A stretch of 46,876 bases of DNA from the NCBI GenBank assembly GCA_023954815.1, contig JAGSHB010000024.1:1-46876 (forward strand), read 5' to 3'. Source of the stretch: Myxococcales bacterium. Its GTDB lineage: Bacteria > Myxococcota_A > UBA9042. Of the stretch, positions 10,174-46,823 are shown piece after piece. Position 1 is the stretch's first letter. The number at the start of each line of letters is the position of its first letter. The position numbers were made by a program, and so were the translations under genes. Below the pieces are notes generated by a model. That model had not been told where the DNA came from, did not search any database, and was given only the letters and a program-made list of their open reading frames with translations.

Positions 10174-11043
10174 GTGTCTAGTCGCCGAACCCTCATTCTC
10201 ACAGCCAGCCCGAGTATCACCGCGCTACCTGGGCTCGTTTTTAGTGATACGCCGCGAGCGACGGACGCAGCTCTCATGAGCGCGGCGTTGGCCCAAGTGA
10301 AGCCAGGTGACACGGTGACCTTCGGCGAGGGAGATCCACTGCTGCAGGCCGACGTGTTGACCTGGCTCACAGGGGCAAAGGAGGCGGGTGCGGCAACGGT
10401 CGGCGTCCAAACCACCGGTCACGTCCTCGCCAAGAAAGGGGCGGCTTCGCAGCTTAAATCTGCCGGTCTCACCGATGTCCACGTCATCCTCTTGGGCGCC
10501 GATGCGGCCAGTCACGATTGGATTTCCGGCTCAGACGGGAGCTTTCGGCTTGCCTTACGCGGGATAAAGCGCGCCAACGCCGCTGGGCTGCGGACCCACA
10601 TCCTGGCTCCCATTTTGCGGCCGACATTTCGGGCACTCCCCGATCTGGTGCGCCGCTCCCTGGCCCTGCACGTGCGCAGCTTTGCCTTCCACGCGCCCCT
10701 AGGCACCGAGCGCGAGGCCCACGGTCTGCACCCGCACCTCGCATTGGCCGGACCACACGTACAGCGGGCCATTGCTCTGGCCCGTCTGGCTAAGCGGCGG
10801 GCGACGACGTGGGGCGTCCCTGCCTGTGTGCTCGCCGATCAATCGTCGGCCATGCAAACGCCACGATCCGGACATATCGTGATCGACGCAGCCATGCCAA
10901 CTACTGATTATCGCGACCGAATTCACGGGGCGCCGTGCAACGAGTGTGGGCTCCGTGCACACTGCCCTGGACCGCTGGCAACCTATGCCGAGCAGTTCGG
11001 TTGGGGAGGACTCGTGCCCCAGCAAGACGCGACCCCAAAATGA
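10174..11043 (+). CDS. Radical-SAM-like protein lacking the SAM-cluster cysteines
   Basis: The 289-aa product follows the radical SAM barrel pattern: TVTFGEGDPLL (48-57) where active enzymes have GGEP, then a VGVQTTG strand, an AGLTDVHVILLG strand and the GSFRLALRGIKRANAAGL helix. It has no CxxxCxxC. The N-terminal segment where the motif should lie (about 11-24) contains no cysteine. All four cysteines are C218 (in VPAC), C255, C258 and C264 (CxxCx5C), the same pattern as the presumed auxiliary [4Fe-4S] site of the active radical SAM proteins nearby. The start is GTG 10174, preceded by GGGAG with a five-base gap. It is the first gene of the island, 58 bp before the next. It is probably a non-catalytic partner or scaffold; function unknown. 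Confidence 0.75.
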   Translation: MSSRRTLILTASPSITALPGLVFSDTPRATDAALMSAALAQVKPGDTVTFGEGDPLLQADVLTWLTGAKEAGAATVGVQTTGHVLAKKGAASQLKSAGLTDVHVILLGADAASHDWISGSDGSFRLALRGIKRANAAGLRTHILAPILRPTFRALPDLVRRSLALHVRSFAFHAPLGTEREAHGLHPHLALAGPHVQRAIALARLAKRRATTWGVPACVLADQSSAMQTPRSGHIVIDAAMPTTDYRDRIHGAPCNECGLRAHCPGPLATYAEQFGWGGLVPQQDATPK

Positions 11044-11101
11044 CAGCGCCCGCTTGCGGTCGCAGCCAGCTATCCGCCCCGATCTGGACCAGGAGCCCGG
11101 G

Positions 11102-13117
11102 ATGACCCGAATCTCGCAATCAGCCGCCGCCGAACAGCGTGACGACGCCCCGACATCTGCCGGTGGCGATCACATCGACATCGAGCGACTGGTTCGTGAT
11201 GGCGTCCTAACCAGAGACGAGGCTCGGGCGCTCGAGCACAGCCAGCAAAGTGACAGTGGCGGCGCCGCGCGGATGGAGGCCCTGCCCGAGACGCGAGGGT
11301 CCGGTGAGGATAAAGACGCGGTCAAAGAAGTAGCGGTCAAGCACAAGCGCCACTGGGTCCGCGTGACCCGGGTCTGTAACCAGCGCTGCACGTTCTGCCT
11401 CGATTCGATGAATCAAGACGGCACGATGATCGACACCGACTCCCTGAAGGCCTACATCGCGCTGGGAAGGAAGATGGGCCGGGAGCGTCTGATCTTGTCT
11501 GGCGGCGAGGCCAGTGTGCACCCCGACTACATCGAGTTGATTCGCTATGGCCGTGAGGTGGGCTACGAGTGGATCCAGACGATCACCAACGGGATGATGT
11601 TCTCGTACAAGAAGTTCGCTCGAAAATGCGCCGACGCCGGTCTCAACGAGGCCACCGTCTCGATGCACGGCCACACGGCGTACCTGCAAGATCGGCTCAC
11701 GGGCACGCCGGGCGCCTTTGTCACCGGTGTGAAGGGCATGCAGAACTTGATCGCGACCGGTAAAGTCGTGGTCAACGTCGACGTGGTGATCAACAAGCAG
11801 AACTACAAGCACCTACCTGAGATTATTGAGTACTACTATAACTTGTCGATCCGCGAGTTCGACCTGCTGCACATCATCCCATTCGGGCGCGGCTTCGATG
11901 AGCACCGCCACAGCCTGTTTTTTGATCTGAACGACGCCGTGCCCTACTTCCGTCGCGCGTTTGAGTGGGCCAACAAGCCGGGCGTCTACCTGTGGACCAA
12001 CCGCCTGCCCGTGCCCTACCTCGAGGACTTCGAGCGCCTGATTCAAGATCCGCACAAGCTGACCTATGAGTTCGACGGTGGCCGGCATAACTTCGAGAGC
12101 TTTCTCAAGCGCGGGTTGAAGCCCGATTGTTGGGGTGAGCGCTGCGACTATTGCTTCCTCGATGGCCCCTGCCGCTCGACGATGTTTCCCTATCGCGGGC
12201 ATCTGGAGGCCCGGACCTTCCCGGTGGTTAAACTCGACAGCCAGACAGTGTGGCCGTCGCCTCAGGCCCAGGCGGTTTTTGAAGCCCAGCAGCCGAAACG
12301 CGTGGTGCTGACGGCCCGAGATACGGCGGATGCGAGCCACGCGCTCGACTCGTTGCCCTTTGGCGATGCGCCGGTTTCGCTACAGCTCGATGCAGGGGCT
12401 GAGCCAGAGAGTCTGCCCGCACGGGTGGATCGGCTTGTGATCTCATCGGTCGACGATGCGGCGCGCTACCTCGTGGGCACCGATCGTGTGACGACGGAGG
12501 TGGAGGTACAGCTCGATCGGAAGCTCGCTTCCTGGCTGCTCGCCCGGCCCTCGACAGTGAAGAGCTGGGGCAATCGGCTCATTTTGACGCTGCAAGACCA
12601 CGAGTATCTCAGCGGCTCGCAGCAAACGGACCCAGCACCGGAGTCCCTGCGTAAGCTCGCTGGATTGGGGGCGCGGCTAAAGAACGTACCTGCTTGTGTC
12701 GCCGGGGGAGAGTCTGTGCCCCACGATCACTTCCGCCTTGATGCCGAGCTACTCGATCGCGGCGGTGACTTGGATCTGGACCGCTACGTCCACCACTACA
12801 TTGAACGAGAGTACTACGCCAAGAGTCTGCGGTGTAACCGCTGCGCGCTATCGGATGACTGCCGCGGTCTGCACATCAACTACCTGCGCAATCACGGTTT
12901 CAAGATCTTGCGTCCCCTCGATGAAGACGGCCAAGAGCTCGCCGATGCGGGCTCTTTCGAGGACATCACGCAAGTGCTCAAGGAGGCGACCGCGGACCGT
13001 GATCGGCGGGAGCGCAAGCGCATCGTCGGGATGCATCAGCCGGCCAAGAGCGTGCGGGTTGCGCTGGGCAAAACCAGCCTTTCAGACCGAAAATCCGCTG
13101 TAAAAGCCGAAAACTAG
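11102..13117 (+). CDS. Radical SAM protein with a second, degenerate radical-SAM-like module
   Basis: The start is ATG 11102 with AGGAG seven bases upstream; the frame is open to 10946 but would overlap the previous gene. The 671-aa product begins with about 75 polar residues of unknown function. A radical SAM core follows with C92xxxC96xxC99, GGEAS (in place of GGEPT) and the SMHG strand. This module ends in a Cys group C343, C348, C351, C357 whose last three fit CxxCx5C. A further region of about 230 residues ends with VPAC (C532) and C578xxCx5C587, the same tail as module one and the neighbours, but no CxxxCxxC precedes it. It therefore reads as one active module plus one truncated module. 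The substrate is unknown; context suggests peptide or protein modification in the cytoplasm. Confidence 0.82.
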   Translation: MTRISQSAAAEQRDDAPTSAGGDHIDIERLVRDGVLTRDEARALEHSQQSDSGGAARMEALPETRGSGEDKDAVKEVAVKHKRHWVRVTRVCNQRCTFCLDSMNQDGTMIDTDSLKAYIALGRKMGRERLILSGGEASVHPDYIELIRYGREVGYEWIQTITNGMMFSYKKFARKCADAGLNEATVSMHGHTAYLQDRLTGTPGAFVTGVKGMQNLIATGKVVVNVDVVINKQNYKHLPEIIEYYYNLSIREFDLLHIIPFGRGFDEHRHSLFFDLNDAVPYFRRAFEWANKPGVYLWTNRLPVPYLEDFERLIQDPHKLTYEFDGGRHNFESFLKRGLKPDCWGERCDYCFLDGPCRSTMFPYRGHLEARTFPVVKLDSQTVWPSPQAQAVFEAQQPKRVVLTARDTADASHALDSLPFGDAPVSLQLDAGAEPESLPARVDRLVISSVDDAARYLVGTDRVTTEVEVQLDRKLASWLLARPSTVKSWGNRLILTLQDHEYLSGSQQTDPAPESLRKLAGLGARLKNVPACVAGGESVPHDHFRLDAELLDRGGDLDLDRYVHHYIEREYYAKSLRCNRCALSDDCRGLHINYLRNHGFKILRPLDEDGQELADAGSFEDITQVLKEATADRDRRERKRIVGMHQPAKSVRVALGKTSLSDRKSAVKAEN

Positions 13118-13133
13118 CTGGAGCGCGCCCCCA

Positions 13134-14279
13134 ATGGCCAACATCGGCTACATCCAGATGGTGCGCCACTGCAACCAAAACTGCGGCTTCTGCTCAAATC
13201 CGGAAACGCCCTGGTTTCATGGAGAGTCCGAGGTCCGCGCGCTCATCGACGACTTTGCCGAACGCAACTACTTCGGCGTGATCTTCACGGGCGGTGAGCC
13301 GACGCTGACGCCGATTCTGCCAGAGATGATCGCCTATGCCGGCGAGCGTGGGTTGCACACCCGCCTCATCACCAACGGCCAGAAACTAGCGGACCTAGCC
13401 TATGTAACCCGACTGCAAGCGGCCGGATTGCAGCACGTTCATGTCAGCGTGCACTCGCACAAGCGCGCGTTAGAGGACTTTCTCACGGGCACGCCGGGCT
13501 CCCTGGCCTGGGCCGAGCAAGCGCTGACCCACCTCGCAGGCAGCACCATCCGCGTAGACGTCAACATCGTCATCAATCGCTACAACGCCGATCAACTCCA
13601 CGAGACGATCGACTGGTTCGCGGCCCACTATCCCCATGTCCGCCACTTCATCTTCAACAACCTCGACCCGAGCATCGGCAGGGCGCACACGAACCAGTAT
13701 TTTGCCCCTACGTTTCGGCAAATGGAGTTCAGTCTGCAGCGGGCGATGACGACGCTAGCGCAGGCTGGCCGTACGTTTCGGGTCGAGAAGGTGCCGCTTT
13801 GCTACCTACCCGGTTTCGAGCACTGCAGCACGGAGACCCGCAAGATCGTCAAAGCGGAAGAGCGCATCGTTCACTTCCTCGATGAAAAGGGCACGGTGAT
13901 TCAGCAGCAGTGGGGCCATCACCACGCCGAGGTGTGTGGGGTGTGCACGCTGCGGGCGCTCTGTGCCGGTTTGTTCACCCGCGGTGAGGCCTACGACGAA
14001 GCCGAGCTGACACCGGTTTTTGTCGACCCGAGACCCATCGTCAAGCGCATCGCCGACGACGAAGCCAGCGATCCGGCGTGGCAGAGACAGCGATTGACTG
14101 GGGCGGCGGCGTTGGTCAAGGCGCCGAGTGAATCCCAAAGGCCAGCCAAAATGGCGCCGCCAGATGGCTCACGGCTCGTGCAACCGCAGTTAAACCCCAA
14201 GAGACGACGTGATCCGTGGCGAGACTGGCAACCGACGCCTGGCAATGCTGAGACGCCCACGACCGCTGGTGATTCATAG
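13134..14279 (+). CDS. Radical SAM protein with auxiliary-cluster tail
   Basis: The 381-aa product starts almost at the catalytic motif: C13xxxC17xxC20 binds the SAM [4Fe-4S] cluster and GGEPT (53-57) is the SAM-binding glycine motif. Family-typical strands follow (LITNG, HVHVSVHSHK). C223 in VPLC, C231 and C268xxCx5C277 form a likely auxiliary cluster site, as in the neighbouring radical SAM proteins and the fusion protein at 38281. The last 80 residues are polar and rich in Pro and Arg, without recognisable fold. The ATG is 16 bp after the previous stop; the nearest purine-rich site is weak, suggesting coupled translation. It could fill the HxsC position (second radical SAM enzyme) of an Hxs-like system, but its motifs are not close to the HxsC I know. 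Confidence 0.85.
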   Translation: MANIGYIQMVRHCNQNCGFCSNPETPWFHGESEVRALIDDFAERNYFGVIFTGGEPTLTPILPEMIAYAGERGLHTRLITNGQKLADLAYVTRLQAAGLQHVHVSVHSHKRALEDFLTGTPGSLAWAEQALTHLAGSTIRVDVNIVINRYNADQLHETIDWFAAHYPHVRHFIFNNLDPSIGRAHTNQYFAPTFRQMEFSLQRAMTTLAQAGRTFRVEKVPLCYLPGFEHCSTETRKIVKAEERIVHFLDEKGTVIQQQWGHHHAEVCGVCTLRALCAGLFTRGEAYDEAELTPVFVDPRPIVKRIADDEASDPAWQRQRLTGAAALVKAPSESQRPAKMAPPDGSRLVQPQLNPKRRRDPWRDWQPTPGNAETPTTAGDS

Positions 14280-14299
14280 GCCCTGTAGGTTCGTTCGCC

Positions 14300-14342
14300 T
14301 GCGCCTAGCCCTGCGCCCGAGTTGCGCCCGACGTGCGCCCGA
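14300..14342. repeat. Three 9-bp direct repeats TGCGCCCGA with 11-bp period
   Basis: TGCGCCCGA starts at 14312, 14323 and 14334, exactly 11 bp apart, with a degenerate copy (TGCGCCTAG) at 14300. The array lies in the 278-bp gap before the hxsD-like gene. One copy per helical turn is the usual layout of a cooperative regulator site, so an operator for the downstream genes is possible. The rest of the gap holds no convincing gene. Confidence 0.55.
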
Positions 14343-14557
14343 CCACAGCCTGCTGAAGCATCCGCGTGCGTCACTATCGAGGGAGACGGAGGCGGAAGAC
14401 TTTGCAAAGATGACAGGCTCATCGGCAGTGCTGGGTTGACGGCCGATCTCCCCTAATGCTAGCCCAGTGCACATCGTTCGGTGTCGCTCCCGGCCCATCC
14501 CCCTCCGGTAGGCACCCACAGCACCTCGCCCAATGGCGAGCGGAAGGGGATCATCCC

Positions 14558-15022
14558 ATGGCTCAGCATACCCTTGAGCGCTTTGACGCCGACAGCAACA
14601 CGGCCGTCCTCAGTCTAGACGCCGGTATCTACCCGCTGGATGCGGTCTATGGCGCAGCCTACGCCCTGATCGATCGCGCCTACGTCCTACTCGACAAAGA
14701 AGCGCGGGCAGAAGGCAAAGGCAGTCGATTCCTGATTCAGCTGCGCGGCAAGATCAAGCTCGATCAGGCGGCTGCACAGGCCCTGTCCGGCGAGTTCGGC
14801 AACGAGCTGCTCAGCCAAGCGCTCCGTCGCAAAGTGGTCAAGCAGAACGGCGGGTTGATCGAGGAGATCGTCACGCAGGCCATCGCCGGCGCCACCGGTG
14901 CCAGCCTGCCGCAGGACTTCCTCGACGATGACGACGACGATCTCGACTTTCTCGATGATCCCCTAGGAATCGCGGTTCCGTGGGAAGAGAAGTTCAAGAA
15001 AGACGGCAAGAAAAACGCCTAG
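14558..15022 (+). CDS. hxsD: HxsD-like protein with acidic C-terminal tail
   Basis: The 154-aa product resembles HxsD of the His-Xaa-Ser system: IYPLDAVYGAAYALIDRAY (24-42) matches the amino-terminal helix of that family, and F80-x-NELLxxxLR (80-90) followed by NGGLIEEIVTQA (97-108) matches its LLNDYxLRE-type motif. HxsD is a small partner of the HxsB/HxsC radical SAM enzymes; its exact role is not established. The start ATG 14558 follows GGAAGGGG; an in-frame upstream start at 14456 is less likely. Unlike ordinary HxsD it carries about 40 extra residues: DDDDDD from 123, a second acidic stretch, then a hydrophobic GIAVPW and a lysine-rich end. The HxsB-like gene lies 313 bp downstream, supporting the call. 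Identification is from motif memory. Confidence 0.7.
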   Translation: MAQHTLERFDADSNTAVLSLDAGIYPLDAVYGAAYALIDRAYVLLDKEARAEGKGSRFLIQLRGKIKLDQAAAQALSGEFGNELLSQALRRKVVKQNGGLIEEIVTQAIAGATGASLPQDFLDDDDDDLDFLDDPLGIAVPWEEKFKKDGKKNA

Positions 15023-15059
15023 GCGACGCACGGCGCATACCTGCGCCAGTGGAGGGGCC

Positions 15060-15293
15060 ATGGCCACCGACCTGACGATCTCTTTGCACCGCGCGATGTA
15101 CATGGCCCAGGCCATTCGCGACGCCATGGGTGTGTTCGATGATTTTGCGACGTTTTCAATGGAAAAGAAGGGTGATCACTACGAAGTGACGATCCGCGAC
15201 GTGGACCCCGAGGTCGATGGCGACATCGTCGGAGAATTCAGCAACTTCGCCCTGGCCCACACCATTGAGCGCAAGCGGCGCACGCCGAAATAG
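15060..15293 (+). CDS. 77-aa radical SAM partner protein, possibly HxsD-like
   Basis: This small gene lies between the hxsD-like and hxsB-like genes, 37 and 42 bp from each, and has a good GGAGG site four bases before its ATG. The protein has an N-terminal strand plus helix (LTISLHRAMYMAQAIRDAM), a two-stranded region (ATFSMEKKGDHYEVTIRD) and an EFSNFALAHTIE segment. This order (strand, helix, strands, EFxNxxL helix) matches the larger HxsD-like protein in miniature, so I think it is a second HxsD-like partner. It has no Cys and no HxS repeats, so it is not an obvious HxsA-type substrate. A leader-type precursor or a peptide chaperone are alternatives. No direct function can be given. Confidence 0.65.
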   Translation: MATDLTISLHRAMYMAQAIRDAMGVFDDFATFSMEKKGDHYEVTIRDVDPEVDGDIVGEFSNFALAHTIERKRRTPK

Positions 15294-15335
15294 CGGCACC
15301 CAAGACATAGCAGCGCTCAGCGCTCGGAGCCCACC

Positions 15336-16844
15336 ATGACCCAGCCTCGCCTCGATGAGTTGATCAGCCTGCGCAAGGTCGATGCGACCTTCGCTCTGCC
15401 TTTCAACCAACGGCCGATCAACGATGACTTTCTGATTTCAAACGACCTCGGCGACATGACTTTTGTGACGCCGACAGAGCTGCAGAAGTTGGCGTACGGG
15501 CAGATCGAAAAGACCGAACCGCTGTACACGCGTCTCGCGGAGAAGAACTTCATCGCTGGCGAGGTCGACGTCGCGGCCCAGGCCACCCGTTGGCGCACGA
15601 AGAACGCCTTTCTGTTTTACGGCCCCACGCTGCACGCCTTTGTGCTGACCGGCCGCTGCAACTTCGGCTGCCAGTACTGCCACAGCTCAATCGTGGGCAT
15701 GCACCGCACCGATACGGACATGTCGATCGAGGTCGCCGAGCGCGCCGTGGACATGGCGTTTCAGACCACGAGTCCGGGCATCACGATCGAGTTCCAGGGC
15801 GGCGAGCCCATGGCCAACTGGGAAGTGCTCCAGCACGTAGTCGAGTACGCGCGGCAGAAGAACGCGCTCGTGGGCAAGGCGCTGACGTTTTCACTGGTCA
15901 GCAACCTGACGCTGATGACCGAAGAGAAGCTGGACTACCTGCTTGAGCGAAAGGTCCAGATCTGCACCAGCCTCGATGGCCCCAAAGACCTGCACAACAA
16001 GTACCGCATCTACCGTGACGCCGATGGTTTCGACCTGACAACCAAGTGGATGAAGCGCATCAATGAACGCTACGTCGAGATGGGGCTGGACACCAATCTG
16101 TACCGGGTCGAAGCGCTGCCGACGGTGACGCGCGCGCTGCTCGAGCGCCCCAAAGATCTGGTCGATACCTTCGTTGATTTGGGCTGTCGTGCGATCTTCC
16201 TGCGCAAGCTCGATCCGTTTGGATTTGCCGCCAGAACTGCCAAAACGCTGGGCTACAGCATGGAGCAGTACATCGATTTTTACGTCGAGGCGGTGGACTA
16301 CATCATCGAGCTCAACAAGCAGGGCGTTCAGGTGATGGAGCGCAACGCGGCGATCATGCTCAGCAAGATGATCGCCGACTACGAGCCCAACTACCTCGAC
16401 CTGCGCAGCCCCGGCGGCGCCGTTATTGGCCAGATCGGCTACCACCCCGACGGTCGCATCTACTCGTCTGATGAGGGTCGCATGGTCGGCGCCATGGGCG
16501 ATGAAGCGTTCTGCATCGGCACGCTCGACAACACCTACCACGAGATCATGACCGCCGCGTCGACCCGTGCGCTGGTGATCGCTGGCACCAATCTAGGGCA
16601 GCCAGATTGTGTCTCGTGCGTCTACCGGCCCTACTGTGGTCAACAGCCCGAGTACAACTACAAGACGCAGGGAACCATTCGCGGCCGCATGCGCGACAGC
16701 ACTTGGTGTCGCAAGCATAAGTACATCTTCGACTACCTCGCCAAGCGCTTGCACTCGGCTGACGCGGACGAGATGGCGATGTTTGAGCGCTGGACGACCA
16801 ATCGTCCGCAAGAGCACTTCCTACAAGAATCCGGTGAGATCTAG
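15336..16844 (+). CDS. hxsB: HxsB-like radical SAM maturase
   Basis: The 502-aa product matches HxsB, the radical SAM/SPASM-like maturase of the His-Xaa-Ser system. It has an N-terminal domain (FLISNDLGDMTFVTPTEL), then C108xxxC112xxC115, IEFQGGEP (151-158), STSLDGP-like CTSLDGPKDLHN, FLRKLDPFGFA and YLDLRSPGGA, then PDGRIYSSDEGRM and the C-terminal C425xxCx5C434 with YNYKTQG, a later cysteine in TWC. These segments are typical of the HxsB family as I know it. The enzyme would act in the cytoplasm on a peptide or protein brought by HxsD-type partners. ATG 15336 follows GGAG with a six-base gap. HxsA, the usual substrate with His-Xaa-Ser repeats, is not found in this window. Confidence 0.83.
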   Translation: MTQPRLDELISLRKVDATFALPFNQRPINDDFLISNDLGDMTFVTPTELQKLAYGQIEKTEPLYTRLAEKNFIAGEVDVAAQATRWRTKNAFLFYGPTLHAFVLTGRCNFGCQYCHSSIVGMHRTDTDMSIEVAERAVDMAFQTTSPGITIEFQGGEPMANWEVLQHVVEYARQKNALVGKALTFSLVSNLTLMTEEKLDYLLERKVQICTSLDGPKDLHNKYRIYRDADGFDLTTKWMKRINERYVEMGLDTNLYRVEALPTVTRALLERPKDLVDTFVDLGCRAIFLRKLDPFGFAARTAKTLGYSMEQYIDFYVEAVDYIIELNKQGVQVMERNAAIMLSKMIADYEPNYLDLRSPGGAVIGQIGYHPDGRIYSSDEGRMVGAMGDEAFCIGTLDNTYHEIMTAASTRALVIAGTNLGQPDCVSCVYRPYCGQQPEYNYKTQGTIRGRMRDSTWCRKHKYIFDYLAKRLHSADADEMAMFERWTTNRPQEHFLQESGEI

Positions 16845-20638: not shown

Positions 20639-20667
20639 TTGCTTTCGCTTCTAGGGGTGGGTATGAA
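20639..20667 (+). promoter_or_regulatory. Candidate promoter of the first Cys-rich lipoprotein
   Basis: TTGCTT (20639-20644) and TATGAA (20662-20667) are 17 bp apart, inside the 236-bp gap between ribF and the lipoprotein gene. Transcription would begin about 20 bases before the ATG at 20696, leaving a short leader that contains the GGAGAGG site (20684-20690). Confidence 0.35.
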
Positions 20668-20695
20668 CCGAAGTATCCGTGACGGAGAGGTATGC

Positions 20696-24397: not shown

Positions 24398-25193
24398 CAC
24401 CAACGTTCGCATCCCCGCACCTCGAGATGCTGCTGATCTCGCGCGCCACGCCACATGGGCGGAGCGTGGACACTGAACGCGGATCCACCTAAAAAGCACT
24501 GCCAGATGTGGCGCAGCAAGAATCGACAGGCGAGCAATACAGTCCGTTCGTCACCGACAGGGTCGGCCATGATCGGCCCGATCGGGTGCGGCGAGCGAGG
24601 GTGAAGATCGCCGCAACTGGTTCAGCTAGTCGCGATCGTGCGCGACGAATGCCCCCTATATTAGGCGCCTGTCACAAATGTGAGCCCGTAGCCCACGCGG
24701 CCGTGAAGAACATCATCGAATCGACTTGCGCTACGGCCGGGCAGAAGTAAAGTGCATTTGTGGGAGTCCTGACGCGGCGTAGCGAAGGGAAGGCGGTCGA
24801 CTGCGATTCGCCGATGGGAGGCACTATGAGCCTGGGGAGCCATGCAAGCCCTTGCGCTGTACGTTTCAGTCCGCAACAAGCGAGCGCTAGAGGGGGCGTC
24901 CGCTTGCAAACGACAAGAACTACGCGCCAAGATCTTGGCATCCACACAAATGTTCAGTATTTTTCTCGAGACTCGAACCAACAGTTCAGGCTGACTTCCA
25001 CAGTTTTCAGACGCCGTTCGCCCGCTTTAGGTGCGCGTCGGCAAGCTAGCAAAGAGAATCGGATGACATTCCAACCCTCATTTCGGTTATTTCAGAGTCG
25101 TTATGGGAGCGGTTCGCATCCTGACAAGACATACAGTAGACTCCGCGAGCAGCGGCGAGCACGATAGGCGAGCCCCTCGCTATGGAGACGCAC
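24398..25193. other. 796-bp intergenic region between the two paralogues
   Basis: No gene with family resemblance is seen. One frame (ATG 24826 to stop 25167, 113 codons) has GGGAGG upstream but its product is Arg/Ser-rich and low in structure, so I do not call it. There is no clear terminator after the first paralogue. The length suggests a regulated promoter or leader for the second. Confidence 0.5.
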
Positions 25194-29234: not shown

Positions 29235-32200
29235 CTATGGGCAGCCTTCATCTGTGGTGCCATCACAGTCGTTGTCCTTGGTATCACAACTTGTCTCGGT
29301 GGCAGTAGCACTCTGGTAGCCCGGTACGGCCTTGTAGTCGCAGGTCCACTTTCCGGCGCTGCAGCTCGCGGACACGTTGGCCTTCGTGCACACACCGGTG
29401 ACCTTGCAGTCCGATTTGCTGACGTCCATCAGACTCTCATCGGTACTACCGTCGCAGTCGTTGTCCTTGTTGTCGCAGGTGGCTTCGTTCGCTTCATACG
29501 TAGCCAACAAGTCGTAGCGGCACAGCGGGTTGCCCGCGATGCACTCTTTGGCGGCGGCGGCGCAGACACCCTTCGTATTGCACGTCACGCTAGACATGTC
29601 GGGGTTCACGTCTGTGGTGCCGTCACACGTATCGTCTTTGCCATTGCAGGTCTCTTTGTTCTTCTTCTTGCTCAGGGTGCTGCACGAAGCCTTCTTGCCA
29701 TCGCACACGACCTTGCCGGCCGCACAGATCCCGGTTCCGCAGGTCTCGCCGATCGTTCCGCTGCCGCCCATACCCGAGTACGTGAAGGTGTTCGCCGCTT
29801 TGCTCGCATCGTTACAATCGCCTGATTTCTTCGCGGTAAAGTTCAAAGCTGGCACGGGCTTGCACATGCAAACACCACTGGAGGTCACACCGAATCCGTC
29901 GCCGTCACCGTCTTGGTAGTAGAGCACGCAGTGCTTGGCGTTCTTGTCGTTGTTGTCGCCGTTGCAGTTTTCATCATCGTCGGTCAGGCACGTCTCTTGG
30001 GCACCAGGGTTGAATGACGAGCGGTCCTCACGGCAATCTCCGCCGCCGTTGGGGCACACCTTGGGTTTGCCCTTCACCGCCATTTTGTCGTCGCACCATT
30101 TGTCGTTGTCGTCATCGCACCCTTCATCCACCGCGCCGCTGCAGTTGTTGTCGAGATCGTCGCAGGTCTTTTCAGTCTTCGATTCGTAGGTGCTCTTGAT
30201 CGTGTAGTTGACGTCAGGACAGGTCGTCCACACACCCAATTTGCACTGGGCTGGCTTTCTCCTGACCCCCTTACAGACCCCCTTCTGGTTGTCGCAGAGA
30301 GGCGCTGTCTTCGCGAGATCTGTCGGATCCGCAGCGTCCGTCTTTGAGTCGCAATCATCGTCGACGTTGTTGCAGGTCTCGGGTGCCGCTGGGTTCTGAC
30401 TTGCCCCGGAGCTCTTTCCGTCGTTGCAGTCACCGCCGCCCTTCGGACAGGCATTCGGCTTGCCCACCACGACCATCTTGTCGTCGCAGTAGTCGTCGTT
30501 GTCGTCGTCGCAGCCCTCGTCCGTACCAAACTTACAGTTGTCGTTGATGTTGTTGCAGATCTCCACGGCGCTGGGCGAGATAGCCTTCACCTTGTCGTTG
30601 CAGTCGCCACCACCCTTTGGACAAGACTTCGGCGTACCAACCGTCGTGCGATTTTCATCGCAGTAGCCATCACCATCCTGGTCGCAATCCTCATCCGTGC
30701 CGCCAGAGCAATCATTATCCTCGCCATCACAGGTCTCGGTCGCGTCAGGGTTGATGGGCTTGCCGGTAGCTGATGTGTCGTTGCAATCACCGCCGCCCTT
30801 AGGGCACACGGTCGGCTTGCCGATGGTGACCCGCTTGAGGTCACAGAAGTCATCGCCATCTTGGTCGCACAACTCGTCTGTCTTGCTGTTGCAATCGTTG
30901 TCCACGTTGTCGCACAGCTCCGGCGCGGTCGGGAACGTCGTCTTGACCTTGTCGTTGCAGTCACCACCACCGTTGGGACAGACCGAGGGCTTGCCGACAA
31001 CAGTCATGTTCTCGTCGCAGTAGTCGTCCTTGTCGTCATCGCAGCCTTCGTCGACGCGGCCGTCACAGTTGTTGTCCTTGCCGTCACAAATCTCGGTCGA
31101 CGCCTTGCCAAGGGTTGAGCACGTCACGCCCGAGGTCCCTGCGCACTTCACCGTGCCGCCGACACACACGCCAAGACCACACTGAGCTTTGACCGCGAGC
31201 TTCCACGTCTTGCCAGTGGCTTTGCTGACCTGGGTGTAGATGAAGGTCTCATCCGTCTTGCTGTTGCAGTCGTCATCCTTGTCGTTGCACAGCTCTTTCG
31301 TCGACGGGTTGATGTTCGCGTTGGCGTCGTTGCAGTCCCCGCCGCCAAAGACGCAGGTCTTCGGCTTACCGGGGGTGCTCATCTTCGCGTCGCAGTGCTT
31401 ATCGCCGTCGTCGTCGCAACCTTCATCGACCTTGCCATCGCAATCGTTGTCCTTGTCATCGCAAATCTCGGTGGTGTTTTCCTTTTTCGAACCGTTGGGA
31501 TTGGTCGAACACGTGGCGGTTTTTGTGGAGCCCGGTGTGCATTCCACCACGCCCTTGCCGCAGGCTCCGACGCCATCGCAGGAGGCCGTCGTCGCCAAAC
31601 CGAGGTACTTGAAGCCCTCGTCCGTGACGCCGTCGCAGTCGTTGTCCTTCGTGTCACAGATCTCTGTGGCTTTCTTGAACGCGGTCGAGCAGGTCACGCC
31701 CGTCTTGTCGTTCATGCAGACCACATTGCCCTTGGCGCACTCGCCCTTGCCGCAAGACTGCGTGATGGTGCGGTTGTTTCCGAGGTCGTCGTAGTTGAAG
31801 TCCTCGTCCGTCTTCCCATCACAATCGTTGTCGTAGCCGTCGCAGCTTGTCTCTTTGTTACCCTGGTAGAGTTTGACCAGGCTGTAATCGCACACCCACT
31901 TTCCGGCCGTGCACGCGGAGGTGACATTCTTGTTGTTGCACTGACCCACAAGCTTGCAGGGCGAGTCCGTCACGGTCATGCCGTCATCGGTCTTGCCGTT
32001 GCAATCGTTGTCCTTGCTGTCACAGACCTCTTTCGTGATCTTACCAAGCGATGAACACGTCAGCCCAGTGCCGTTGCCTTTGCACACAACCGTGCCGCTG
32101 GCGCAGGCGCCCGTACCGCAACCCGCTGCGATCTTCTTGTCCTTGCCGAGATCGCTGAACAAGAAGTCATCGTCCGTCTTGCCGTCGCAGTCGTTGTCCT

Positions 32201-34385
32201 TGCCCTCGCATGTGCTCTCGACGAGCTTGAAGCACTTCTTCGTTCCGAGACCGGGGCAGTGGCAGAACGCATCGCCCGGCTGACACTCTTTGGTCGAATC
32301 GAACTCGATACTCGGCACCTTCGTGTAGTCACAGACCCACTTACCAGCCTTACAGACGGTCACGATCTTCTGCACGCTCGCGCCAGCGCAGACGCCCGTC
32401 TTGGCGCAGGTGGAGTCCGAGATGGTCGTCAGTGACTCGTCGGTGGTGCCGTTGCAGTTGTTGTCCTTGTTGTCGCAAATCTCGGTCTTGCTTTGGTTCT
32501 TGCTGCCGTCGACATCCGTGGAGCAAACCGCCTTGTCTTTGGTGATGCGACACTCGACTTTGCCCTTGCCACACGCCCCGATACCGTCGCAATCCGCCCC
32601 AACAACTAGGCTTTTAGCGCTGGACTCCTCTTTGTAGGTGTAGTCCTCGTCGGCTTTGCCATCGCAATCGTTGTCGAGGTAGTCGCAGACATCGGTAGTG
32701 GGTCGCTTGTCGCCTTCACAGCCCACGCAGGTCAGCGAGTCCTTGTCGAACGCCTTCTGCAGGCAATCGAGTTTGCCGGGCTCCTGAGATGCAGGCCAGT
32801 GCTTGCAGACCGAGACGCCGGGCTGCTTGCCGCACTCACCGTCCGGGTCGCCGCAGGTCTTGTCCTCAGCTTCCGGGTTGCCGTTGTCCGTGAACCCATC
32901 GCAGTCGTCATCCTTGCCGTTGCACGTCTCGACCGCGTCCGGCGCGATGGCCTTGTCGTCGTCATTGCAGTCAGCAGGAGCGGCCCAACCATCACCATCT
33001 TTGTCGGTCGCGCTGTCGCAAGCAGGATCGCTGCCCACACAGCCTTGAACCTTGCCGTCACCACACTTTTCAGCCGCGCCGGGGTAGCTCAACGGGTCGG
33101 TGTCGTCGCAATCCAAGGGCGCAGCTACCCCGTCGCCATCGGTGTCCTTTGGCGCGCACGGGTCCACTTTGCCGTCGCAGTTGGTGTCGCAGGTAGAGAG
33201 GACCGCGTCGGTCGCCTTGACGCCGCTCGGAATGGGGGACTTGGGTGTCCAGCCGCTATCCTTGTCCAGAATCAGCTTGGTGTAGGAGATGCAGCAGCGC
33301 TCCTTGACCGTATTTCCGGGGTGATACTCGCTGTGAAAGCGTGCAAATTTGAAGGCGCAGGCCGCGTCCTCCTTGTCGTTGGGCACACCGTCGCCGTCGA
33401 TGTCTTGGAGTGCGCACCCGTCGTTGACCTTGCCATTGCAGTCATCATCAACCTGGTTGTCACACGCTTCTTTGTCGGCCTTTTTATCCGCTGATGAGCA
33501 GACGAGCCCTTTACCGTCGGCGCTGCACACAGCCGTACCGCCAGCGCAGGCGCCCGCACCGCACGAGTCGCCCTTCGAGAGCGAGCCTGGATTGCCGTCG
33601 ATGCCAGTGTAGGGCAGGTCTTCATCCACCTTGCCATCGCAGTCATTGTCTTTGAGATCACAGACCTCGGGAGCCCCCGGGTAGACGGTCTTGTCCTTGT
33701 CTGCGCCTGGACCGCACTTGAGCTCCTGGCAGTCGGGGGCGCCATCTCCATCAGAATCGACACACTTGGTGTCTTCGCCGTCGCAGTCCTCGTCGATGCC
33801 ATTGCCACATTGGGTGCAAGAGTCTTCGAACGAAAAGGGGCTCGCGTCGGAGCCCTTGGCGGGATCATCGGAGCAGTCTGTGGCCTCGCCCTCGGCACAG
33901 CAGCCGTCTTTGGCGCAGTCTTTCACACCGTCGCCATCGGCATCGCAGTTGGCGTCGGCCTTGACGAGCATCACGCTGATCTTCTTCTTGGTGGTCGCCA
34001 CAACGACACCGGACCAGCTGGTGAGCACCTTGAGGTTGTCGTCGAGGCCACGAATCCGCAGCTGCAACTTCACGGGCGACGCGCCGCCCTGGTTCACATC
34101 GAGGTCGACCTTGAACTTCGTATTGACGAGGTCAACACCGGCAGGCAGCGGCCCCGCGTACTTCTTGGCTTCACCGTCGCCAGATGCAGCCGGAAGTTTC
34201 TCAACCACCGCGCCATCTGCGTCGAGCCCGAGCACACCGATGTCATAAAACGTGATCGGGCCCCCATCAGGAACCTCACTGCCGATCTCGAGACGAATGG
34301 CGTCGTAGACGACCACTTCATTTCCGCATGCAGTGACGAGCAGGGCGATCAGGGTCAGTACGACCACAGCGAAACGCGTTGGCAT
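29235..34385 (-). CDS. MopE-repeat giant lipoprotein (1716 aa)
   Basis: The start is ATG 34385 with GGAGG eight bases upstream; the frame is open to 34544 but only this start yields a signal, ending in LLVTAC (Cys20). A beta-rich head (about 21-150) is followed by more than twenty Asp/Cys repeats of the type EICDNKDNDCDGKTDE, alternating with GGGDCND..INPxAxE units and CGxGxCxxGxVxC units, up to a terminal CDTKDNDCDGTTDEGCP. The repeats match the putative metal-binding motif found in MopE of Methylococcus and in many myxobacterial secreted proteins, so Ca2+ or copper binding and a surface location are reasonable inferences. Unlike lipoproteins A and B there is no GCAPTG tail. The repeats resemble the C-terminal third of the partial giant protein at 1-6231. 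Confidence 0.9.
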   Translation of the reverse strand: MPTRFAVVVLTLIALLVTACGNEVVVYDAIRLEIGSEVPDGGPITFYDIGVLGLDADGAVVEKLPAASGDGEAKKYAGPLPAGVDLVNTKFKVDLDVNQGGASPVKLQLRIRGLDDNLKVLTSWSGVVVATTKKKISVMLVKADANCDADGDGVKDCAKDGCCAEGEATDCSDDPAKGSDASPFSFEDSCTQCGNGIDEDCDGEDTKCVDSDGDGAPDCQELKCGPGADKDKTVYPGAPEVCDLKDNDCDGKVDEDLPYTGIDGNPGSLSKGDSCGAGACAGGTAVCSADGKGLVCSSADKKADKEACDNQVDDDCNGKVNDGCALQDIDGDGVPNDKEDAACAFKFARFHSEYHPGNTVKERCCISYTKLILDKDSGWTPKSPIPSGVKATDAVLSTCDTNCDGKVDPCAPKDTDGDGVAAPLDCDDTDPLSYPGAAEKCGDGKVQGCVGSDPACDSATDKDGDGWAAPADCNDDDKAIAPDAVETCNGKDDDCDGFTDNGNPEAEDKTCGDPDGECGKQPGVSVCKHWPASQEPGKLDCLQKAFDKDSLTCVGCEGDKRPTTDVCDYLDNDCDGKADEDYTYKEESSAKSLVVGADCDGIGACGKGKVECRITKDKAVCSTDVDGSKNQSKTEICDNKDNNCNGTTDESLTTISDSTCAKTGVCAGASVQKIVTVCKAGKWVCDYTKVPSIEFDSTKECQPGDAFCHCPGLGTKKCFKLVESTCEGKDNDCDGKTDDDFLFSDLGKDKKIAAGCGTGACASGTVVCKGNGTGLTCSSLGKITKEVCDSKDNDCNGKTDDGMTVTDSPCKLVGQCNNKNVTSACTAGKWVCDYSLVKLYQGNKETSCDGYDNDCDGKTDEDFNYDDLGNNRTITQSCGKGECAKGNVVCMNDKTGVTCSTAFKKATEICDTKDNDCDGVTDEGFKYLGLATTASCDGVGACGKGVVECTPGSTKTATCSTNPNGSKKENTTEICDDKDNDCDGKVDEGCDDDGDKHCDAKMSTPGKPKTCVFGGGDCNDANANINPSTKELCNDKDDDCNSKTDETFIYTQVSKATGKTWKLAVKAQCGLGVCVGGTVKCAGTSGVTCSTLGKASTEICDGKDNNCDGRVDEGCDDDKDDYCDENMTVVGKPSVCPNGGGDCNDKVKTTFPTAPELCDNVDNDCNSKTDELCDQDGDDFCDLKRVTIGKPTVCPKGGGDCNDTSATGKPINPDATETCDGEDNDCSGGTDEDCDQDGDGYCDENRTTVGTPKSCPKGGGDCNDKVKAISPSAVEICNNINDNCKFGTDEGCDDDNDDYCDDKMVVVGKPNACPKGGGDCNDGKSSGASQNPAAPETCNNVDDDCDSKTDAADPTDLAKTAPLCDNQKGVCKGVRRKPAQCKLGVWTTCPDVNYTIKSTYESKTEKTCDDLDNNCSGAVDEGCDDDNDKWCDDKMAVKGKPKVCPNGGGDCREDRSSFNPGAQETCLTDDDENCNGDNNDKNAKHCVLYYQDGDGDGFGVTSSGVCMCKPVPALNFTAKKSGDCNDASKAANTFTYSGMGGSGTIGETCGTGICAAGKVVCDGKKASCSTLSKKKNKETCNGKDDTCDGTTDVNPDMSSVTCNTKGVCAAAAKECIAGNPLCRYDLLATYEANEATCDNKDNDCDGSTDESLMDVSKSDCKVTGVCTKANVSASCSAGKWTCDYKAVPGYQSATATETSCDTKDNDCDGTTDEGCP

Positions 34386-34586
34386 CCGTAGTTCCTCCGG
34401 TGTGGCCAAACGCACGACTGACGGGCGTCTGCTTCCACAGTCGCTGGAGTATACCTGCGCCGCACGCTGGCGGAAACTTACCCGCAAAAGTGAGAGACCG
34501 CTGCGTCGGACAAACGGCCGGATCGCGACCGTCACATACCCCAACTACTTGCATATTCAGCGCTTATGAAGGAGACGGCGGCGACG

Positions 34587-38264: not shown

Positions 38265-38280
38265 GCCCCGGAGTCTCCAC

Positions 38281-40599
38281 TTGGCGCGTGTCCTGCTCAT
38301 TCAGCCTCCACTGCTGCTACACGGGGAGTTTATCGATTACCCGTACTTCGCGTCAGCAGGTCTATGGCAGGCCGCTGCAATGGTTCGTGATGCTGGCCAC
38401 GACGTGACCCTGCTCGACGCGTTCGCGCTGCCGACTTCGTCTCTCATGAAGGAAAGCAACTCCATGATCCGCCTCGGCGTGCCATGGGCGACGTTTACGG
38501 AACGGCTCCCGGCGGAGGCCCCGGATATCCTGGTGATCGCCAACTCACCATGGCAACGCGCGCGGCAGGCGACGGTCGAACTCGCTCGGTTCGTCAAGGG
38601 TATCGACACCGCTTGGCCAGAGGTCACGACGGTCCTCGCCGACTGCGATATCGGCGGCATGCACTACATCGAGTGGGGGACAGAAGAGCTGGACAGGCTC
38701 GGCATCGCATGGGGCCAAAAATATGAGCCGGACACCGCCCTACCGGAGCTACTCGACACCCTCGCTGCCGGGCGCGACCCCGAGACCCGTCTAACCCTCG
38801 GTATCCCGGGCGATGGCGCCCTCGATGACCTGCCCCTTCCTGCCTACGATCTGGTCGACATGGCCGCGTTTCAGGGGTTTTGTGGCCGCGTGGCCCGGGC
38901 CCAGCACAAGCGAGAGATCTTCGATTGTTCGCCGCCGCTCCTGGCGCTGAAGACCTCCAGGGGCTGCGTCTACCGCTGCAATTTCTGCACGAGCAACCCT
39001 TGGCAACGCCAGGGACACGACGGGCGCAGCTATCGGACGTATGGCCCCGAAGCGCTGACAGCGCATTTGACGCTGCTCAAGACGCAGTACGGCATCCATC
39101 GCGTGGTCGTGCTCGACGAGCTGGTCAACGTCAACGAACGCCACCTCGACCACTTGCTCGACGCTCTGGAATCACTGGAGATGCGGGTCGATTTTCCCAA
39201 TGGGATGCGCGCCGATCGGCTCACTGAACATCAGGTGCAGCGCCTAGCTCAGGTGACGAACAAACTGTCGGTGAGCGCAGAGAGTGCGAGCGACAGGGTG
39301 GCCAATGAGTTGATCGGCAAACGCTTTGATCTAACAGCAACGCGGCAGGTCGCCCAGTGGGCCAAGGCCGCGGGCCTGCCCATGGTCGTGCATTGGATGA
39401 TCGGTCAACCCGAGGAGACCCGATCGGAGATTCTAACGACGCTGGAGACCGCCTGGGAGCTCTTCGAAGAGACGGACGCCCGGCCGCTGCTGCAATTTGC
39501 CACGCCGATCTTGGGCACTGCGCTGCATCAGGCCGTGACAGAACAACAGCTGTGGACCCGGCGGGAAGATCGCGACATCGGGCCGCTGTTTCAGGGTGCG
39601 CCGAGCTACGAAGACAGGCGAGGCGGCACCGCTGGCACAGAGCAAGGCTGGACGGCCCGCGAACTGCACGTGGCCAAACTGGCGTTTGAGACCAAGCTCG
39701 CCGCCCACAAGCCGCGCAAGATCATCATGAACACCACGTATATCTGCAATAATCAGTGCGTGTTCTGTGCCACGGGTAACCGGCTTCCCAGCCACGGTGA
39801 TGTGCAAGAGCAACTGCGGTTTATGCAGATGCGCCGCGATCAAGGCTACGATCTCATCGACTTTGACGGCGGCGAACCGACGACCAATCCGATGCTGTTT
39901 CACCTGCTACGGTCGGCCAAGGCCATGGGCTACAGCCAGATCAACCTGACGAGCAACGGGCGTATGCTGATGCTGCCCAAGAACGCGGAGAAGATCGTCA
40001 GGTCGGGCATCACCAACCTGCTGATTTCATTACATGGCCCCAACGAGCAGGTGCACGAGGAGCAAGTCCAGTCAGCCGGCGCCTTTCGACAGACGGTGCG
40101 CGGTATTGCCAACGCGGTGAAGCTCTGCAAGCGCTATGGCGTCGGATTTGGCGTCAATGTCACGCTGACCAAGACGAACTTCCCGGTTCTGATGGAGTAT
40201 GGCGCCCTGCTCACGCGGCTCGGTGTGTCCCTGTGCAACATCCAGTTCGTGACGCCCTTCGGAAAAGCATCCGCCGCGACCCAGCCCGACCCCGCTGAGA
40301 CAGCCCTAGCAGTGCAGCGTCTCATCGACACCTTTGGCGATCGGATCACGTTTCAGGTCATCAACCTACCGCTCTGCTACATGGCTGGATACGAGGAGTA
40401 CTGCCTCGGCGACATCTTCAAGCTCGAGCGCCGGATGGTCTTCGTCTCCATGGAAGACGTAAACCTATTTGATTATCTGCAGTCGAGGAGACGCCACGAA
40501 GCCGCCTGCAAGACGTGCCTCGTTTCGACCGCCTGCGAAGGGTTCTACTACTTCCCCGATTCCTGGAACGACGAAGCCGCAGCCCGCTGGGGGGACTGA
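38281..40599 (+). CDS. Fusion of a cobalamin-binding domain with two radical SAM modules
   Basis: The 772-aa product starts at TTG 38281 with GGAG seven bases upstream, and RVLLIQPP at residue 3 opens a B12-binding-type domain (about 1-150; no DxHxxG motif, as in this radical SAM class). Module one has C229xxxC233xxC236 in TSRGCVYRCNFC, then typical class-B segments (DELVNVN, LSVSAESAS, MIGQPEET). Module two has C489xxxC493xxC496, DFDGGEP (GGEP at 530-533), SLHGP, and a tail with C699 (LPLC), C708 and C743xxCx5C752, like the proteins at 10174-14279. Both SAM clusters appear intact. The first module may methylate or otherwise act with cobalamin and the second make a separate modification on the same substrate. 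I know of no characterised enzyme of this layout. Confidence 0.88.
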   Translation: MARVLLIQPPLLLHGEFIDYPYFASAGLWQAAAMVRDAGHDVTLLDAFALPTSSLMKESNSMIRLGVPWATFTERLPAEAPDILVIANSPWQRARQATVELARFVKGIDTAWPEVTTVLADCDIGGMHYIEWGTEELDRLGIAWGQKYEPDTALPELLDTLAAGRDPETRLTLGIPGDGALDDLPLPAYDLVDMAAFQGFCGRVARAQHKREIFDCSPPLLALKTSRGCVYRCNFCTSNPWQRQGHDGRSYRTYGPEALTAHLTLLKTQYGIHRVVVLDELVNVNERHLDHLLDALESLEMRVDFPNGMRADRLTEHQVQRLAQVTNKLSVSAESASDRVANELIGKRFDLTATRQVAQWAKAAGLPMVVHWMIGQPEETRSEILTTLETAWELFEETDARPLLQFATPILGTALHQAVTEQQLWTRREDRDIGPLFQGAPSYEDRRGGTAGTEQGWTARELHVAKLAFETKLAAHKPRKIIMNTTYICNNQCVFCATGNRLPSHGDVQEQLRFMQMRRDQGYDLIDFDGGEPTTNPMLFHLLRSAKAMGYSQINLTSNGRMLMLPKNAEKIVRSGITNLLISLHGPNEQVHEEQVQSAGAFRQTVRGIANAVKLCKRYGVGFGVNVTLTKTNFPVLMEYGALLTRLGVSLCNIQFVTPFGKASAATQPDPAETALAVQRLIDTFGDRITFQVINLPLCYMAGYEEYCLGDIFKLERRMVFVSMEDVNLFDYLQSRRRHEAACKTCLVSTACEGFYYFPDSWNDEAAARWGD

Positions 40600-45300: not shown

Positions 45301-45723
45301 ATGCATCCGCACCAAGCCCCAAAGCACCATGGCAAACTCCGCCGAGCCAGCGTCTGGCTTCTCGGCGTGTGGCTTCTCGGCATCGGGCTGAGTCTGTCGG
45401 CCTGTGGACCTGTGACCACGGCCTCTGTCATTGCAGACGCTGAGCACGACCTCGCAGAAGTTCGCGGTCTCGATGGCGATAAAAACGCGCCCTACGAGTA
45501 CACGAAAGCCGCGAGCTACCTGCACAAAGCCAAAGAGCTTCAGGGCCATGGTTTGTATGAGCAATCCGGGACCTATGCCAGACGCAGCCGCGTCATGAGC
45601 GAAAAGGCCCTTGAGGTGGCGCGCTTGGCTCAGGAACGCAGCCAACGCAAGGCCAAGTTCGGCAAGAAGCCAAAGAAGAAGGGGCCGCCCTCATTTACCC
45701 CCTCCGGCGGAGGTGGCCGATGA
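45301..45723 (+). CDS. DUF4398-type lipoprotein
   Basis: ATG 45301 follows AGGAG at a ten-base gap; the frame is open to 45208. A basic N-terminus leads to a long hydrophobic stretch and lipobox LSAC (Cys35). The mature 105 residues have the DUF4398 pattern: repeated helices with Ala at fixed spacing (ADAEHDLAEVRG, APYEYTKAASYLHKAKEL, YARRSRVMSEKALEVARLA), then a basic Lys-rich tail. The gene overlaps the OmpA-like gene by four bases (ATGA). In related bacteria such small lipoproteins accompany OmpA-like lipoproteins at the outer membrane; their function is not known. Confidence 0.85.
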   Translation: MHPHQAPKHHGKLRRASVWLLGVWLLGIGLSLSACGPVTTASVIADAEHDLAEVRGLDGDKNAPYEYTKAASYLHKAKELQGHGLYEQSGTYARRSRVMSEKALEVARLAQERSQRKAKFGKKPKKKGPPSFTPSGGGGR

Positions 45724-46823
45724 GCCCGTTGCACAGCCGCGCCCTCGTAGCACTGAGCCTCGCCTTTTTCATGGCGAGTTGCATGTCTTCGAGCAAAGTT
45801 GCCGAAGAAACCAAGCGGATGAGCGACATCGTGCGCTCGGCGAAAGTGCAGGCCTACTACTGCGCGCCGCGGGACTTGGCGCTGGCAGAATCGCACATCG
45901 ATTTCGCACGGATCGAGTCGGCTCGCGGCGATACGATCACCGCACGGGCCCACATCGAACTCGCGCGCAAGCACACGGCGAAGGTGTTCGCGGTCAAAGA
46001 CAAAAAGGGCTGCTGCCCAGATCGGGACGGAGACGGCTTCTGCGATGCCGCGGATAAGTGCCCGGATGACCCGGAAGACAAAGACGGCGACGAGGACTCC
46101 GACGGCTGCCCCGAATATGATCGCGATGGTGACGGCCTGCACGATCAGAAAGATCGCTGCCCGGACAACGCAGAAGACAAGGACGGCTTCTTGGACGAAG
46201 ACGGCTGCCCCGAGCCCGACAACGACCGGGACGGCATCCCAGACAAGACGGACAAGTGCCCGAACGTTCCCGAAGACAAGGACGGGTACGCCGATAAGGA
46301 CGGCTGTCCAGACTTCGATAACGACGGCGACGGCAAGCTTGATTACCCGGTCAAGACGGACAAGTGCCCCAATAAGCCTGAGGTGTACAACGGCCTAGAG
46401 GACGAAGACGGCTGCCCAGACAAGAAGGCCGCGCCGCCGAAGCCGAAAGAGTACAAGAACATCGTGGTCGAGCAGGATCGCATCGTGTTCAAGAAGCAGA
46501 TTCGCTTCAAGACAAACTCCGCGAAGATTGTCGGCTCGCTGTCGTTCCAGATTCTCGATGAGGCTGCGGACGCACTCAAGACGCGGCAGGACGTGCGGGT
46601 GCAGGTCGAAGGCCACACCGATGAGCGTGGCTCCGACAAGAAGAACAAGAAGCTCAGCCAGCGCCGTGCCGAGTCCGTCGTGTCGGCTTTGGTCGAGCGC
46701 GGTATCGCACGCAGCCGCTTGATTCCGGTTGGCTTCGGTGAGGACAGGCCGCTCGACCCGGCGCACAACAAGGCCGCTTGGGCCAAGAACCGCCGCGTCG
46801 AATTCAACTTCCTCCAGGACTAG
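45720..46823 (+). CDS. OmpA-domain lipoprotein with TSP3-type repeats
   Basis: The 367-aa product has a lipobox MASC (Cys21), a helical segment (about 30-95) of the same Ala-spaced type as the preceding gene product (YYCAPRDLALAESHIDFA), a run of thrombospondin type-3-like Ca2+-binding repeats with DxDxDGxxDxxDKCPDxPEDKDG pattern (98-240), and a C-terminal OmpA/Pal domain (about 255-367). The domain has the VEGHTDERGSDKKNKKLSQRR and NRRVEF segments that bind diaminopimelate in peptidoglycan. It is probably an outer-membrane lipoprotein tethering the membrane to the cell wall. It is co-translated with the DUF4398 gene (ATGA overlap). The 53 bases after its stop hold no recognisable feature. 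Confidence 0.92.
   Translation: MSPLHSRALVALSLAFFMASCMSSSKVAEETKRMSDIVRSAKVQAYYCAPRDLALAESHIDFARIESARGDTITARAHIELARKHTAKVFAVKDKKGCCPDRDGDGFCDAADKCPDDPEDKDGDEDSDGCPEYDRDGDGLHDQKDRCPDNAEDKDGFLDEDGCPEPDNDRDGIPDKTDKCPNVPEDKDGYADKDGCPDFDNDGDGKLDYPVKTDKCPNKPEVYNGLEDEDGCPDKKAAPPKPKEYKNIVVEQDRIVFKKQIRFKTNSAKIVGSLSFQILDEAADALKTRQDVRVQVEGHTDERGSDKKNKKLSQRRAESVVSALVERGIARSRLIPVGFGEDRPLDPAHNKAAWAKNRRVEFNFLQD

Follow-up and report, generated by a model that had tools for sequence, protein, structure and literature searches.

The gene at positions 38281 to 40599 of the window (the whole 46,876-nucleotide stretch of Myxococcales DNA that was analysed) raises the question of why a B12-binding-type domain and two radical-SAM modules are joined in one chain, and on which substrate such a protein would act. 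As an explanation, an earlier note on this DNA had suggested two radical SAM reactions in succession on the same substrate, which would not be released in between. Genomes, loci, contigs and families are labelled below with G, L, C and f.

The gene and its two radical-SAM modules

The reading frame on the forward strand is intact from the TTG at 38281 to the stop at 40599, bearing out the single chain of 772 residues described in the earlier note. The sequence GGAG (38270-38273) lies 7 nt 5' of the TTG, and the relatives share this start point in the alignment; a longer in-frame ORF from 38005 is also present, and the 92 residues that it adds are outside the conserved protein. The window was drawn from a fragmented assembly of 314 contigs, which would favour the fused gene being an assembly or annotation artefact. 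However, full-length copies of the double radical-SAM protein were found in independent assemblies, at 57-81% identity within its own family and at 36-43% identity in more distant families across the phylum. All of the searched family relatives have the protein, full length except for one contig-end fragment (G002). Because independent full-length copies occur in unrelated genomes, an assembly error, which the earlier note had named as fatal to the fusion, is excluded, and the probability of an artefact of either kind is negligible. This is a real gene, and its single protein product contains two complete radical-SAM modules. In the phylum sample of 379 genomes, for which the whole-genome search was centred on Myxococcota and many assemblies are fragmented, 82 hold the double radical-SAM protein (E below 1e-60). 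The Myxococcota gene is also carried by a MAG record titled Klebsiella pneumoniae (L016), a label that looks wrong since the contig falls in family f1.

Pfam assigned two Radical_SAM stretches to the protein (E 8e-29), with the CxxxCxxC motifs (residues 229-236 and 489-496) exactly 260 residues apart, and a B12-binding match of 17.7 bits that stays below the gathering score of 32.1. In an alignment of 21 full-length proteins (the window protein and 20 relatives, 36-81% identity), all ten cysteines of both modules and of the tail, the latter with the pattern C699 plus C743-x2-C746-x5-C752, are invariant down to 36% identity. Identity to the nearest relative is 91% in residues 477-765, 80% in residues 176-440 and 66% in residues 1-175; module 2 is the better conserved half and the B12-type domain the least conserved part.

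An AlphaFold2 model (12 sequences; pLDDT 81.4, pTM 0.80), in which confidence is low at the module 2 motif loop and at the C-terminal tail, predicted a B12-type domain and a barrel in residues 1-480 and a second barrel in residues 473-758. When compared with the PDB, residues 1-480 matched AprD4 (Z 25.1), MgmA (23.1), CysS (22.5), OxsB (21.5) and TsrM (21.4), and residues 473-758 matched viperin (Z 19.7), SkfB (Z 18.3) and BlsE (Z 16.8). The nearest NCBIfam families of the first half were AprD4 (NF033070; 75.5 bits, cut-off 500) and other B12-radical-SAM families, each well short of its cut-off. Module 2 was nearest to HxsC4 (NF038332; 118 bits, cut-off 500) and HxsC (TIGR03977; 71 bits, cut-off 267.9) without reaching either cut-off, and TIGR04053, also among its nearest families, was far below the cut-off. 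Both modules belong to the radical SAM superfamily, with the motif present twice and two predicted barrels that have separate PDB matches. The predicted first half has the layout of B12-binding radical SAM proteins, a Rossmann-type domain before the barrel, and the C-terminal cysteine set fits that of twitch/SPASM radical SAM proteins. Taken together, Pfam, the invariant cysteines, the model and the PDB matches agree with the domain reading of the earlier note, including the auxiliary-cluster tail with its four invariant cysteines; the possibility it raised that one module might not fold as a radical SAM barrel is not borne out by the model, in which both do.

Table 1. Coordinates of the double radical-SAM gene, its domains and motifs, and the Hxs genes of the window.
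Feature	Position	Strand	Basis or remark
Double radical-SAM protein gene	38281..40599	+	772 aa; TTG start; reading frame and homologues
B12-binding-type domain	38281..38805	+	residues ~1-175; Pfam sub-threshold, fold match, alignment
Conserved GGMH of the B12-binding-type domain	38653-38664	+	residues 125-128
Radical-SAM module 1	38806..39600	+	residues ~176-440; nearest structures AprD4, MgmA, CysS, OxsB, TsrM
Module 1 CxxxCxxC (C229, C233, C236)	38965..38988	+	invariant in alignment
Radical-SAM module 2, HxsC/HxsC4-like	39709..40365	+	residues ~477-695; NCBIfam and fold match
Module 2 CxxxCxxC (C489, C493, C496)	39745..39768	+	invariant in alignment
DGGEP of module 2	residues 529-533	+	invariant in alignment
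Auxiliary-cluster tail, twitch-like	40375..40536	+	C699, C743, C746, C752 invariant; low model confidence
Radical-SAM-like protein, no CxxxCxxC, Cys tail	10174..11043	+	HxsC4 50.7 bits; conserved position
HxsC/HxsC4-like radical-SAM protein	11258..13117 (ORF may start 10946)	+	HxsC4 103.7 bits
HxsC-like radical-SAM protein	13134..14279	+	HxsC 95.7 bits, cut-off 267.9
HxsD	14456..15022 (start uncertain, 14456-14558)	+	TIGR03976 46.2 bits, cut-off 50
HxsD-like small protein	15060..15293	+	77 aa; NF038315 58.1 bits, cut-off 41
HxsB radical-SAM/SPASM maturase	15336..16844	+	TIGR03978 511.7 bits, cut-off 370

The Hxs system and its linkage to the gene

Hxs systems have been recognised from sequence for years. 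The window also encodes such a His-Xaa-Ser (Hxs) system, which is the main context of the 772-residue protein and is missing from the earlier note. Its locus at 10174-16844 encodes three HxsC-like proteins, one of which is without motif cysteines, together with HxsD, an HxsD-like protein and HxsB (Table 1), and family f1 keeps this gene order. Among the relatives, the HxsD family is kept beside HxsB, and the HxsD-like small protein sits between HxsD and HxsB in most loci. Homologues of the CxxxCxxC-less radical-SAM-like protein are at the same place in several f1 loci.

Other genes of the window were also recorded. Directly 3' of HxsB are two tandem paralogous proteins (17282-17857 and 17975-18586), also present in some relatives, and beside the Hxs locus are three very large Cys/Asp-rich repeat proteins (20639-24397, 25182-28007 and 29235-34544), the first two of which have a similar C-terminal tail (FGFYSWLMSLIGK / FGFYAWVKALLGK). 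An OmpA-like protein with Asp-rich calcium-binding-type repeats ahead of it is encoded at 45720-46823. The f1 gene order of a MopE-like protein, a TPR protein and the double radical-SAM gene was considered as context and rejected, because it breaks down in L046, L047 and L051 and does not extend beyond f1.

The candidate precursors are repeat peptides. In relatives, ORFs beside HxsB encode peptides that end in (Ser-His-Gly)n-Ser-Trp. The genome of the window encodes an HxsA4 of 104 residues (...AEHCSHGSHG...SHGSW; L125:6185-6499, on contig C39, which is not the window contig) that exceeds the curated cut-off (NF038313, 92.9 bits against 55). This HxsA4 gene stands alone without Hxs neighbours, and its peptide has identical Ser-His-Gly units and a terminal Trp. 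At locus L106 of G356, HxsA4 is directly followed by a true HxsC4 (630 bits, cut-off 500). The G356 genome consists of two contigs, and about ten HxsC4-like frames, HxsA4, HxsB, HxsD and the double radical-SAM gene lie within ~65 kb of its contig C1 (7389596-7456074). As a marker, TIGR03979 (HxsA) was rejected, since its matches were mostly low-complexity stretches equally seen in control genomes; on inspection of the ORFs, its N-terminal-type matches alone led to true (SHG)n peptides. The genome of the window encodes, alongside the double radical-SAM protein with its HxsC/HxsC4-like module 2, the Hxs proteins HxsA4, HxsB and the HxsD-like protein over their cut-offs, and HxsD just below.

The gene is physically linked to the Hxs genes in several lineages. 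In L089, the homologue, HxsD and HxsB are arranged like an operon with 4-bp overlaps; in L085, the homologue is directly behind HxsB; and in L078, it is divergent to the HxsD-HxsB set. The gene lies at most 30 kb from HxsB in 14 genomes of seven families, the window included, with a distance of 22.9 kb in the window and 0.2-26.7 kb in the other linked genomes. Random placement would put about one genome within 30 kb against the 14 observed, a rough estimate for which the threshold was picked after the data had been viewed and many contigs are too short to judge. In most genomes the gene is distant from HxsB or on a different contig, and it is far from HxsB in several genomes that include the near-complete G340.

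Co-inheritance with the Hxs system extends beyond the linked genomes. HxsB was found in 126 of the 379 genomes and a (His-Gly-Ser)n array in 129, and 80 of the 82 carriers of the double radical-SAM protein have HxsB (absent in G014, 58% complete, and G277, 67% complete), as 80 have the array (absent in G277 and in G038, 79% complete). The Fisher p values across the 379 genomes were 4e-46 for HxsB and 8e-45 for the array, and partly reflect shared ancestry. Counts within the four families of mixed presence (f18, f22, f38 and f40) were meant to lessen this effect: 30 genomes have both the protein and HxsB, 40 have neither, none has the protein alone and one has HxsB alone (p 3e-19). In this lone genome (G290), a fragment of the protein is encoded at a contig end. 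Since HxsB occurs without the double radical-SAM protein in about 46 sampled genomes, the protein accompanies only some Hxs systems, as an accessory.

Partner genes and active sites on separate chains

Downstream of the gene in family f5 come a further twitch-type radical-SAM gene and then a gene for a methyltransferase. In f8, the downstream genes are a radical-SAM gene of this type and a degenerate gene of the B12-radical-SAM kind; since HxsB is on a different contig, this three-gene group may belong to a separate pathway. All 27 relatives with the double radical-SAM protein have the methyltransferase, and none of the six relatives that lack the protein does; in the genome of the window the methyltransferase is on another contig (L143:1839-3395). 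Fusions connect the same partners. In G199 and G089 the methyltransferase is joined to module 1, in G268 it is joined to a paralogous, HxsC-like module 2 (L141:791-2758), and in G043 and G038 module 2 is joined to the extra radical-SAM protein. The G043 protein (L073:7501-10563) has a degenerate first half ahead of its HxsC-like module and the other radical-SAM module. Radical-SAM-methyltransferase fusions also stand beside HxsD-HxsB, in L107 and L116.

The two active sites are on different chains in G199, G089, G078, G038 and G043. Two full-length paralogues of G078 in f18 (L075:8304-10637 and L076:7629-10001) show reciprocal loss: in one copy the module 1 cysteines are intact and serines replace those of module 2, and in the other module 1 is cysteine-less and module 2 intact. 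In f5, G199 (L138, L139) has a chain of module 1 with the methyltransferase and a partner with a decayed module 1 and an intact module 2, and G089 likewise carries the sites on different chains. In f15, G038 and G043 have a module-1-only protein, and their second protein combines a degenerate first half with an intact module 2. We did not count G026 as a clean reciprocal pair, because its N-type copy groups with the paralogue G022_p in the tree, and G268, which groups with the divergent G126, was also left out.

Trees of the two halves, which are quick trees without bootstrap, share their major clades, namely f1, f5, f8 and a group of large genomes. Both the f5 cases and G078 fall inside groups of fused proteins, which makes their separation a derived state. 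With the sites on separate chains in several lineages, the two active sites have therefore been kept, and a single chain is not required. We read this pattern as two separate reactions, both of which would be needed and could sit on partner chains, and it makes a strictly channelled mechanism less likely. Given the arrangements in f5, f18 and f15, the succession of reactions without release that the earlier note proposed is a possibility, not a necessity.

Known systems, rival readings and proposed role

The closest structural match, the 1,2-diol dehydratase AprD4 (PDB 6fd2), has a B12-type domain followed by a barrel and aligns over 413 residues of residues 1-480, with ~20% identity and an NCBIfam score far from its cut-off. 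A paper on AprD4 does not describe it as a cobalamin enzyme. CysS, OxsB, TsrM, TokK and MgmA have the same domain order as residues 1-480 (Z 18-23), but each has one radical-SAM module where the window protein, with putative cobalamin binding, has two. SkfB, BlsE and viperin, which are twitch/SPASM-type enzymes or their relatives, share the fold of residues 473-758, and SkfB and BlsE the plan of module 2 plus tail, but none of them is fused to a B12-type radical-SAM module. A characterised fusion of two radical-SAM domains is the FO synthase FbiC (PMC11917521), the sole relevant case found in the open-licence literature. FbiC is a CofG-CofH fusion whose two domains are separate proteins elsewhere; it is likened here by layout, and its product differs. 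To our knowledge, it has no B12 domain. The earlier note had known of no characterised enzyme with such a layout: two radical-SAM domains in one chain are thus known from FbiC, whereas the fusion of a B12-type radical-SAM module to an HxsC-like module, here tied to HxsA4 systems, is unlabelled in the libraries and open-licence papers searched. The Hxs genes are already in NCBIfam, and among the Hxs enzymes described in the libraries searched none has such a fusion. Searches of the open-licence literature returned passing mentions of Hxs only, none of which states its product or chemistry.

Because the gene is co-inherited in myxobacteria and their relatives with, and sometimes operonic with, a His-Gly-Ser repeat peptide system, the protein is probably a new two-reaction enzyme of the peptide-modifying Hxs system. 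More specifically, we lean towards a two-module radical-SAM enzyme of the Myxococcota form of Hxs with HxsA4-type precursors, both modules targeting HxsA4. The solved structure closest to the first half is, however, that of a sugar diol dehydratase. The f5 and f8 groups, which include a third radical-SAM gene plus either the methyltransferase or a degenerate gene of the B12-radical-SAM kind, lie away from HxsB, and in close relatives the presence of the protein is matched more closely by the methyltransferase than by HxsB. These points would fit a two-step radical-SAM enzyme whose pathway is separate from Hxs (for a sugar, a lipid, a cofactor or a different peptide), which enlists both the partner radical-SAM protein and the methyltransferase, and which is co-inherited with Hxs by chance in large Myxococcota genomes. 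No sugar pathway was seen beside the double radical-SAM gene. Such a pathway, which we consider unlikely, has to be set against the operon or immediate neighbourhood with HxsB/HxsD in three lineages and the linkage within 30 kb in 14 genomes, the near-perfect nesting of the carriers inside HxsA4/HxsB-positive genomes, and the related methyltransferase fusions that adjoin HxsD-HxsB.

The remaining alternatives concern the two modules themselves. Both could serve one chemical event, with an intermediate passed between the active sites as in FbiC, and the fusion and both sites, strictly conserved throughout the 21-protein alignment, the broadly congruent trees of the two halves and the FbiC precedent would be consistent with it. 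The sites are nevertheless on different proteins in G199/G089 and G078, which nest in fused clades, and in G038 and G043, making a coupled event rather improbable, although the dead modules that are kept would still allow a heteromeric complex. That one module is a non-catalytic docking scaffold is suggested by the B12-type domain, which is the least conserved part and scores below the Pfam gathering threshold, and by the cysteine-less modules kept in some lineages; with every cluster cysteine of the two modules, and also DGGEP, unchanged across the aligned full-length proteins, and the intact counterpart of the dead module on another chain in G078, G199, G038 and G043, we give this explanation very little weight.

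In the favoured reading of an Hxs enzyme acting on HxsA4, module 1 would be a B12-domain radical-SAM enzyme that presumably binds cobalamin, and module 2 an HxsC-like one whose auxiliary cluster is of the twitch type. Both would cleave SAM, each at its own 4Fe-4S cluster and each for a radical step of its own, and the likeliest target of both would be the (His-Gly-Ser)n tail of HxsA4, on which HxsB, other HxsC-like enzymes and the co-inherited SAM methyltransferase may work as well. The enzyme families related to each module suggest methylation, dehydration or rearrangement as the possible step of module 1, and cross-linking or oxidation as that of module 2. Since the candidate substrate has many identical (His-Gly-Ser) units, this chemistry is testable by mass spectrometry, and the lineages with separated modules offer natural single-activity versions for dissecting the steps. 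The conserved two-module enzyme, the co-inherited methyltransferase and the repeat substrate candidate are now added to the picture of Hxs. Tentatively, we propose that a multi-enzyme pathway modifies the (His-Gly-Ser)n of HxsA4 by B12-type and HxsC-type radical reactions on one chain, which may be an undescribed chemistry and a core trait of whole Myxococcota families.
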